From Thauera sp. (GTDB taxonomy: Bacteria > Pseudomonadota > Gammaproteobacteria > Burkholderiales > Rhodocyclaceae), in the NCBI GenBank assembly GCA_017302295.1, contig JAFLDS010000032.1, positions 1 to 32,072 on the forward strand: 32,072 nucleotides of DNA, written 5' to 3'. Each line of letters begins with the position of its first letter. The first letter of the stretch is position 1. The notes beneath the pieces are model-generated. The model made no database searches, was not told the DNA's origin, and saw only the letters and a program-made list of their open reading frames with translations. A program made the translations under genes and the position numbers. Shown piece after piece: positions 8,585-23,451 of this stretch.

Positions 8585-8853
8585 CGTTGAAGCGCATGGA
8601 CTGCCGCCCGGGCTGCGCCGCCTGCTGCATCGCGCCTTCGATCTCGTCACCCATTCCGGGCATGCCGCAGGGCAAGGCGGCGGGGGTGCGCTGCATCCAG
8701 CTCGATGAACACGACCGCTGCGCGCTGTTCGGGGATCCGCGCCGGCCAGCCGTTTGCGGTAGCCTGCAGCCTTCGGCCGAGATGTGCGGCGACAGCCGCG
8801 ACGCGGCGATGATGTGGCTGACGCGGCTCGAGCGGCTGACGAAGGGCGATTGA
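8581..8853 (+). CDS. YkgJ-family cysteine-cluster protein
   Basis: This 90-residue protein opens with [20 protein letters not shown], the Cys cluster of the YkgJ family (also called zinc/iron-chelating). Two further cysteines, in VRCIQ and DRCALFG, are followed by RRPAVCGSL and EMCGDS. The family is thought to bind a metal; no reaction is established. The ATG at 8581 overlaps the previous stop as ATGA. The best Shine-Dalgarno sequence (AGAAGG, 8575-8580) abuts that ATG and is better spaced for a TTG at 8587. Many relatives begin at the residue matching the ATG at 8596 (MDCRPGC). The true start could be any of the three. A hairpin repeat begins 13 bases after the stop. Confidence 0.85.
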
Positions 8854-8866
8854 CCGTGATAAGGCA

Positions 8867-8971
8867 GGTCTGGCGGCGGGGGATGCGTGGAGCGGACGAG
8901 CACTGCTCGAGTCCCGAGCGAAGCGAGGTCGAGTTGCGCAGGACGCGGAGCGCATCCCCCGCCGCCAGACC
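8867..8971 (+). repeat. Intergenic hairpin repeat, copy A
   Basis: Perfect 21-bp inverted arms (8867-8887 and 8951-8971) enclose a 63-base interior. The inner arm core is GGGGGATGCG. The interior includes CCGAGCGAAGCGAGG. A second copy in opposite genomic orientation lies at 22696-22795. Both follow a stop codon closely and point the same way relative to transcription. No T-run follows, so it is not a standard terminator. Confidence 0.9.
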
Positions 8972-9042
8972 GGATTCGAAGCAGGAACCCATTTGACATG
9001 GCGACTTGAATCGCTTTCGCCGCAGCGCAACACCGCGACCGC

Positions 9043-22598: not shown

Positions 22599-22695
22599 GG
22601 TCGTCCTGGAATCCGGGGATGCGAAGTCCCGCATTGTGACGCTGCGGCGTAGCGAGGGTCCAGCTTCAAGGGCCGCGGGGTGCACCGAACCCGGA

Positions 22696-22795
22696 CTTGC
22701 GGTGGGGGATGCGCTCCGTCGGGCAGAGGAACTCGCCCTCGCTGCGCTCGGTGCTCGGACAATCCTCGCCCGCTCCGCGCATCCCCCACCGCAAG
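22696..22795 (-). repeat. Intergenic hairpin repeat, copy B
   Basis: Perfect 18-bp inverted arms (22696-22713 and 22778-22795) enclose a 64-base interior. Read on the minus strand it aligns without gaps to copy A at 8867-8971 over the inner arm and the first 48 interior bases (38 identical by hand count). The outer arm differs from copy A but remains self-complementary. The element begins two bases after the thiE stop codon. Confidence 0.9.
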
Positions 22796-22797
22796 CC

Positions 22798-23451
22798 CTA
22801 GCCTGATGCAGCCCGCACGCCGAACAGCGGCCGATACGCGGCCGCGCGCGCCGCTGGATCTCCCGCGGCGAAGACGTCGTTGATCACCGCCAGCAGATCG
22901 GCGCCAGCCTCGATGAGCTGGGCGGCATTGTCGAGCGTGATGCCGCCGATCGCCGCCACCGGCACGCCCAGCTCGCGCCGTGTGCGCGTCAGCAGGTCGA
23001 ACGGCGCGCGCGGCGCCTGCGGCTTTGAAGGCGAGGCGAACATGGCGCCGAAGGCGACGTAGTCGGCCCCGGCCGCCGCGCCGCGGGCGGCGCGCTCGAA
23101 CTCGCTGTAGCAGGTCACGCCGAGGATGCGCCCGGAGCCCAGCGCATCGCGCGCCGCCGCCGGATCGCCATCGTCGCGCCCCAGATGCACGCCATCGACG
23201 CCGATGGCAAGCGCCAGTTCGAGATCGTCGTTGATCAGCAGCGGCACGCCGGCTGTCCGGCACAAGGCCAGCAGCGCCGTGGCCTGCTCGCGGCGCAATG
23301 TGGCCGAGGCGAGCTTGTTGCGGTATTGCAGCAGCGCGGGCCGGCCCTGCAGCACCTTATCGGCAAGCGCCACGAGCCGTGCGGTGTCGGCCTCGTCCGG
23401 CGTCACCGCGTAGAGCCCGCGCAGGCTGCTCGCCCGCAGGCCATCAGGCAT
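22798..23451 (-). CDS. thiE: Thiamine-phosphate synthase ThiE
   Basis: TIM-barrel enzyme that joins hydroxymethylpyrimidine diphosphate to thiazole phosphate to make thiamine phosphate. The protein is 217 residues, normal size. Motifs are LQYRNK (diphosphate binding), [47 protein letters not shown] and [11 protein letters not shown]. The start ATG (23451) overlaps the stop of the upstream ThiD-like gene by eight bases (ATGCCTGA), so the two are translationally coupled. The stop is TAG at 22798-22800, followed two bases later by hairpin repeat B. Confidence 0.96.

Follow-up and report, generated by a model that had tools for sequence, protein, structure and literature searches.

Several families of short, folding repeats have been described in bacterial genomes, and the element considered here resembles each of them in part. 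REP sequences, with their REPIN and BIME arrangements, are characterized, in the portions of the sources drawn upon here, as noncoding, intergenic, mostly located downstream of genes, multicopy, palindromic, often organized as inverted pairs, and patchy in their distribution among species (PMC3733652; PMC2817692; PMC6006769), and our element shares these traits. However, REPs measure 20–40 bp, while our element is approximately 105 nt long, shows no GTAG/CGTC tag in the copies read by eye, carries its conserved core near the tip, on copy-specific stems, forms twins that hold genes, and resides in a host in which no Y1 transposase gene was found. A second likeness is presented by the TIRtrons (TIRYT units), in which, according to the part of the account used here, a gene is enclosed by long inverted repeats of a kind also found dispersed (PMC3733652), but no gene tested inside the long twins of our element matched a Y1 transposase. 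The MITEs (ERIC, RUP, NEMIS, Bcr1) are, in that same partial account, short and nonautonomous, located beside genes, and bounded by inverted ends that fold (PMC3733652), whereas the whole solo unit of our element is one covarying hairpin, with a duplication at one locus at most and with no parent transposase found. Inverted repeats, dispersal, and a lack of coding capacity, the latter judged from length, are the MITE traits displayed by the solo hairpins and the close twins. The attC sites of integron cassettes, as far as the sources at hand cover them, are likewise folded single-strand sites with free stem letters, associated with single accessory genes, but our element is mostly inverted, and its conserved part is near the tip rather than at the foot. 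The R-box foot of attC reads RYYYAAC/GTTRRRY. Finally, the tip of our element, in many cases a GNA triloop set on G-C pairs, recalls the d(GCGNAGC) mini-hairpins of DNA, reported in the section of the source drawn upon to be extraordinarily stable (PMC4686876), but these are a structural motif and not an element.

The window analyzed here is a stretch of 32,072 nucleotides from Thauera sp. (contig JAFLDS010000032.1), and its two copies, A and B (Table 1), are solo members of one hairpin family. The geometry given in the initial annotation was reproduced when the sequence was read again, with perfect 21-bp arms around a 63-base interior for copy A, perfect 18-bp arms at 22696–22795 around a 64-base interior for copy B, and 38 of the first 48 interior bases identical between the two, without gaps (recounted by eye). 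Pairing in copy B continues beyond these arms, to 22693–22798, with a single mismatch, which is G·T when read on the core strand. Both copies fold far better than expected by chance, as RNA (z −8.7 for A and −8.5 for B, none of the 200 dinucleotide shuffles of each being as good) and, for the core strands, as DNA (z −6.5 and −6.7, 200 dinucleotide shuffles each). Copy A is found 13 bp past the stop of an open reading frame ending at 8853 (encoding a CxxCxxCC domain), a true stop missed by the rough gene caller, and 107 bp ahead of a BacA-family gene. Copy B is flanked by a class-III aminotransferase gene and by a thiamine-monophosphate-synthase gene, the end of the hairpin overlapping the stop of the latter.

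Table 1. Features of copies A and B (positions in the window) and contents of the eleven long twins (locus handles; coordinates within the locus where available)
Feature	Location	Strand	Basis or content
Copy A, whole hairpin, subfamily 1 (GGTCTGG...GGGGGATGCG stem)	8867..8971	+	Sequence, fold, model R1
Copy A left arm, 21 nt	8867..8887		Sequence; perfect complement of 8951-8971
Copy A right arm	8951..8971		Sequence
Copy A core, apical GC-GAA-GC tip	8888..8950	+	Weak match to cross-phylum core model R2 (23.7 bits, E 0.00035)
GGCA abutting the left arm of copy A on the outside	8863..8866	+	GCA or near form there in most subfamily-1 copies
Right-flank box of copy A, GGATTCGAAGCA	8972..8983	+	GGATTCNNGGCA or near form in most subfamily-1 copies
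TTGACCG upstream of copy A, candidate target-site duplication	8850..8856		By eye, single locus
Copy B, whole hairpin, core on minus strand	22693..22798	-	Sequence, fold, model R1; of the six species compared, present in the host alone
Copy B arm, 18 nt	22696..22713		Sequence; perfect complement of 22778-22795
Copy B other arm	22778..22795		Sequence
Copy B core	22715..22777	-	Model R2 match, 34 bits
Long twin	L127		PDC-S67 gene inside
Long twin	L141		RelA/SpoT-domain PDC-S33 gene inside
Long twin, viral contig	L343:9032-10282		DUF2971 PDC-S31 gene inside; twin located between S24-type repressor gene and murB
Long twin	L202		DUF2971 match inside, weak, just under cut-off
Long twin	L203		Mrr_N-domain protein inside
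Long twin	L135		8xMP and orphan inside
Long twins	L132, L144, L166, L223		Orphans inside
Long twin	L162		FTCD_C gene inside, looks like ordinary metabolism

These two hairpins had been proposed to represent a dispersed intergenic family, the alternative being a single duplication without further copies, and the search of the host genome and of its relatives, along with a covariance model and a copy count, decides in favor of a family, as further copies are present in both. The model, R1, recognizes 46 distinct places in the host genome (4.11 Mb) at 46 bits or above, 18 of these having been used to build it and so matching by construction. The raw list amounted to 60 matches, of which 10 were the same palindromes matched again on the opposite strand and 4 were weak and were dropped. 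A blast search of the host genome with copy A detects approximately 18 good copies. Matches to R1 are present in 22 of the 25 genomes of the genus, the host included, from none (G003, G011, and G024) to 82 (G001) per genome, and in one of the 16 genomes representing other families of the order (G038), stricter filters having been used in this run, in which a few matches may be opposite-strand shadows. Two subfamilies can be recognized. In subfamily 1, to which A and B belong, the GGTCTGG...GGGGGATGCG stem is largely kept and is bordered by two flank boxes, a left one reading GGCA and a right one reading GGATTCNNGGCA, the feet of the copies being GGCA-GGTCTGG...CCAGACC-GGATTC or near forms. In subfamily 2, an inner GGGGTGTTCG-like stem is kept, and the outer 10–15 bp are specific to each copy yet paired. 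Spread via phages or plasmids was considered and rejected: blastn detected no match for copy A in plasmids, and none for copy B in phages or plasmids. One subfamily-2 copy produced a single 28-base plasmid match (E 0.03) and no phage match, and the exact core is present in two stretches of the viral_contigs collection.

The element is present or absent at orthologous sites, multicopy, and mostly intergenic. At the locus of copy A, four of the six relatives read (G013, G001, G008, and G021) are empty, G006 is occupied by an element with a longer interior, and in G016 the element is reversed together with its flank boxes; at the locus of copy B, five of five relatives are empty. Given these absences, the element moves or turns over. 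Comparison of the occupied site of G006 with the empty site of G013 reveals, by eye, the 7-base sequence TGACCGT at either end of the insert, the empty site having a single TGACCG; no target-site duplication was evident by eye at the other loci aligned, and thus it is seen at one locus at most. Of three further host copies, the first is common to G016 and absent from G013, G006, G021, and G001, the second is common to G016, lies reversed in G013, is missing from G006, and in G001 is represented by an apparent half hairpin, and the third is common to G021, G006, and G016 and reversed in G013. Among the subfamily-2 loci, one is occupied in six of six species, with very different stems and with an inverted core in G001, and another is common to G016, with compensatory changes, seen by eye, in the outer stem between the two species. 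A third, L054, is empty in G013, G021, and G016, and insertion into a pre-existing hairpin can be rejected there, as no stem is found at the empty sites. Positions in G001 reveal no replichore bias (5/7 versus 19/19, p 0.74, for 50 of the 82 matches).

The conserved core, GCGAGGACTGTYTGAG…CGAGTTCCGCAGC, in many copies tipped by C-GNA-G, reaches well beyond the genus, into scattered genomes whose titles name other classes and phyla. An exact core pattern fixing 24 bases, scanned against one genome per species in 84,980 species, is found in at least 118 stretches, 80 of them with titles, which is a lower bound and not a prevalence, and degenerate cores, that of copy A among them, escape this pattern. 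Titles among the matches listed include Gallionella, Dechloromonas, Azonexus, Methylotenera, Thauera, Azoarcus, Marinobacterium, Litorivivens, Nitrospira, Eggerthellaceae, and Atopobiaceae, along with metagenome bins labeled Barnesiella, Prevotellaceae, Gastranaerophilales, and Uhrbacteria, for which four mis-binning is possible; the assignments to unexpected phyla come mostly from metagenome bins and could be mistaken. In a sample of the phylum, searched with nearly the same pattern, two of 397 genomes, the host included, carry the core (none with a reversed-pattern control), and the distribution across the phylum is rare and patchy. As 24 core bases are fixed by the search pattern, their constancy in the cross-phylum set is not evidence, while the GAG that follows the first half of the pattern, the apical hairpin, the stems, and the orientation of twins are all unconstrained. 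This GAG is kept in 42 of 42 aligned cores, and the T that precedes it in nearly all. Flanks of the 117 distinct cross-phylum loci pair with each other at a mean of −34.0 kcal/mol, versus −20.8 when combined with flanks of other loci, and at 41 of the 117 loci the energy of the own-flank duplex is beyond the first percentile. Elements with inexact cores near the cross-phylum loci were found with model R2.

The stems covary. In the 18 aligned host copies, double changes are observed in 22 of 36 pairs, versus 9.7 with shuffled columns and 4–8 with the partner slid, the structure having been drawn from the same 18 sequences as were counted. In the 42 cross-phylum cores, 84.5% of the cells are paired, versus 71.6% in shuffles, and 71 cells are double-changed, versus 31; two of the five measures are not above shuffles in this set, double-changed pairs (6 versus 5.8) and pair types (22 versus 19.4). 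On the core strand, and proceeding inward, an outer stem of free letters is followed by a short variable stem and by GCGAGG facing CCGCAGC, which may form tandem sheared G·A pairs, and then by a GGAC/GUUCC stem, a one-sided GUYUGA bulge, and a variable hairpin at the apex. Triloops make up 70 of the 102 distinct apical sequences, 51 of these are GNA, and 50 of the 51 are closed by C-G, versus 10% GNA among the triloops of the shuffle control. The minimal core alone, with standard DNA energies, is not predicted to fold any better than shuffles.

One strand stands out. Counted in stems defined by Watson–Crick pairs only, G·T on the core strand exceeds A·C by 54:11 in the host (40 of 40 copies), by 85:13 in further copies from the genus (53 of 56, orthologues included), and by 66:23 in the named loci (101 of 138). 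At 14 nt or farther from the core, in the 36 of the 40 host copies that could be sorted by the nearest gene, the 16 sense copies give a ratio of 12:1, the 12 antisense copies 17:2, and the eight convergent copies 12:0. At 22 nt or farther, it is 11:1 in the host, 12:1 in the genus, and 13:8 in the named loci, these counts being lower because one wobble near 18–21 nt is inherited by many copies. The excess suggests that one specific strand folds alone, and its persistence in the antisense copies argues against the upstream mRNA being the folded molecule. The bias itself fits folded RNA as well as DNA and does not, alone, separate the two, but single-stranded DNA appears more likely than mRNA to be the folded strand.

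Neighboring elements mostly follow one arrangement. Model R2 was applied to the 118 loci and, in addition, to L312, L343, and L344, and 167 elements in 121 loci were considered for pairing, three matches being left out of the twin count (one cut-off and two of the window). Within 400 bp between starts, 26 pairs are in the '-+' orientation, core strands pointing apart, with 160–346 bp spacing, and three are '+-'; none are 400–800 bp apart; and at 0.8–1.8 kb there are 11 '-+' pairs (904–1686 bp) and a single '+-' pair, positioned between two adjacent twins. Thus, each of the 41 pairs spaced up to 1.8 kb apart is inverted, 37 being divergent and four '+-'. Against a one in four chance of '-+', p is 4e-13 for the close and 2e-6 for the long pairs, several of the loci being related and therefore not independent. 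The host has five close '-+' pairs and one '+-' pair. Besides the four '+-' pairs of the 41 and the one in the host, exceptions to the divergent arrangement are found in congeners: two same-strand R1 matches approximately 210 bp apart (L347:4490-4808) and same-strand subfamily-1 copies 1.4 kb apart (L346:2125-3700), both in G001, and one '+-' pair in G013 (L348).

The long twins enclose one or two small genes (Table 1), with phage-defense-candidate genes in three of eleven. PDC designates families from the PADLOC library of known and candidate defense systems, which we take to be phage defense candidates. In six Gallionellales-type loci (L166, L132, L135, L141, L144, and L127), 10 of the 12 ends are readable, and each of these possesses an outward array of hairpins (CCGCGTAGCGG, TTACTTTCTTTTGGCGAAGCAAAAGAAAGTGAC, and GCCGGGCTACCCCCGGC or near forms), mostly with a GCGAAGC/GCGACGC tip, followed by a T-rich tail, the array being conserved between loci. 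For none of the long twins was an empty site observed.

Considered together, these observations suggest to us, with a probability of roughly 0.6, a nonautonomous mobile DNA element recognized by its structure and existing in solo, twin, and gene-carrying forms, of which A and B would be solo members. The core strand would act as a folded single strand, more likely as DNA exposed in transposition, replication, or uptake than as mRNA, and a recombinase or transposase supplied in trans may recognize the fold and the core, and not the letters of the stem, which would explain stems that drift yet remain paired. The twin, its structured inverted ends formed by the two hairpins, could be the whole unit; A, B, and other solo hairpins could be remnants or single-end products; and some twins may move genes, phage-defense candidates included. 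Promoter insertions would be purged, leaving copies chiefly downstream of genes. The steps that go beyond mobility, one-strand structure, and the twin arrangement are ones that we infer. A conserved core in combination with drifting paired stems in distant groups implies a recognizer that reads shape, and, if twins do carry genes, they would present a route for single defense genes between genomes, apparently without a transposase of their own. A broader version, of cross-phylum mobile cassettes in solo, gene-less twin, and gene-carrying twin forms, some with anti-phage candidates, whose ends would be long hairpins of folded single-stranded DNA, read by shape and core and not by stem letters, and which would be moved by an enzyme acting in trans, is put forward tentatively, as a possibility that we would not yet favor. 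No mobilizing gene was found near the host copies, and a shared gene family beside them can be rejected: a given Pfam family is matched by at most two of the 116 proteins (of 132 called), 25 of the 193 families being named among the matches listed. It also weighs against this reading that most outer stems share no more than 7–10 nt with any other copy, a few pairs sharing 10–11 nt, these lengths being given without a chance level. The simplest answer to stems that are private but paired is long residence under selection for pairing, in which case the resident copies would do something.

The next reading to be weighed, somewhat doubtful in our judgment, is of a structured RNA module at the 3' ends of mRNAs, acting as a terminator, a stabilizer, or a processing signal, each copy being under selection and the family spreading by duplication and transfer. 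The positions relative to genes agree with such a module. Of the 46 host copies, 43 have two called neighbors (three inside called genes, one at L049 and two in L093, were set aside, the gene calls being rough), and 42 of the 43 lie downstream of at least one gene; many subfamily-2 matches start 3–40 bp past a called stop codon; and divergent gaps hold one of 43 host copies, versus 10 of 45 in the local background (p 0.007). Likewise, of the 102 copies in the named loci with two neighbors (41 at locus edges and two called inside genes were set aside), 65 are in co-directional, 30 in convergent, and seven in divergent gaps, the background being 227, 56, and 82, respectively; both backgrounds include the gaps that hold elements. 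The element is thus rare in promoter-only gaps between divergent genes, as has likewise been stated for REPs, in the part of the source drawn upon (PMC3733652). The locus occupied in six of six species, the compensatory stem changes seen by eye at another, and the terminator-like, T-rich hairpins at the Gallionellales-type ends also agree with an RNA function. However, the host copies are found in both orientations to the upstream gene (22 sense and 12 antisense, along with eight convergent and one divergent), and the antisense copies keep the core-strand excess of G·T. A TTTT within 12 nt after the stem occurs on the core strand in one of 40 host copies and on the other strand in none of the 40, and one host copy is positioned, as judged by eye, approximately 45 nt beyond a sequence resembling an ordinary terminator. 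A known RNA family can be rejected, as Rfam produced no match at gathering in the window; below gathering, only eukaryotic or viral families are matched, on six and five loci, with mir-449 (E 0.0024) merely following the hairpin of L058.

Another possibility, an improbable one, is a palindrome without function, kept paired by mutation alone, through template switching that copies one arm onto the other. Template switching is known in quasipalindromes, and the inversion of the core between congeners at one locus would agree with such a process. It predicts, however, symmetry between the strands, against which stands the core strand's excess of G·T over A·C, 54:11 (with one wobble inherited by many copies), and neither would it account for the GAG kept in 42 of 42 aligned cores, outside of the bases fixed by the pattern. 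The related notion, that the outer arms have been copied from the local flank, is rejected, as the arms match their flanks over a mean of 8.0 nt, no better than the 8.2 nt with flanks of other loci.

A divergent REP/REPIN or TIRtron, moved in trans by a RAYT-like Y1 transposase, is more improbable still. The intergenic, mostly downstream location and the frequent inverted pairs are indeed as reported for REPs, in the parts of the sources drawn upon (PMC3733652; PMC2817692), and the initial annotation, in which the hairpins were described as REP/BIME-like in style but larger, was correct as to the larger size (105–106 nt), while the tie to a REP-type transposase was not supported. The RAYT transposase was looked for, and PF01797 has no match in the host at E 0.001, with five of 14 control genomes matching, although a cognate Y1 gene, absent now, may have been lost. 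No GTAG/CGTC tag was seen by eye at the foot of the copies printed, a subset of the 46. With no tag, no host Y1 transposase, and a unit of 105–106 nt versus 20–40 bp, membership in the REP/RAYT system is rejected. A scan of 1.48 Mb of loci (overlaps counted repeatedly) for HUH/Y1 motifs produced two hits, neither seen between two elements, and one of them is a Y1 gene near an element. This is a Y1-type frame (NHYH ... YVVLNP) of a congener (L084:2590-3115), approximately 1 kb from one element; with the GGGGACAGG-like repeats found nearby, it resembles a TIRYT unit that has nothing to do with our element.

An attC-like folded recombination site of an integron-type integrase, which would share with our element, as far as the sources drawn upon go, the dependence on structure over letters, one special strand, and single small genes between sites, is hardly credible given a conserved part near the tip and not at the foot, and no attC-type same-strand array, with none of the 41 pairs within 1.8 kb on the same strand, though two such pairs exist in G001.

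In the open-access literature on the topic, no title or beginning of an abstract describes such an element, a 9-base RNA string occurring in 15 papers whose titles point to other subjects, and no open-access paper contains the core strings or the string of the neighboring hairpin, which subscription papers or supplements may. Two variants deserve mention. One, with a longer interior, by approximately 34 extra bases that form a GCCGCGTAGCGGC hairpin, is found in the host (L013 and L063) and, in G006, at the locus of copy A (L226). The other, more distant, at L086:1490-1640, possesses a stem richer in A+T and a GAGCACTG/GTTGCGCAG form of the core.
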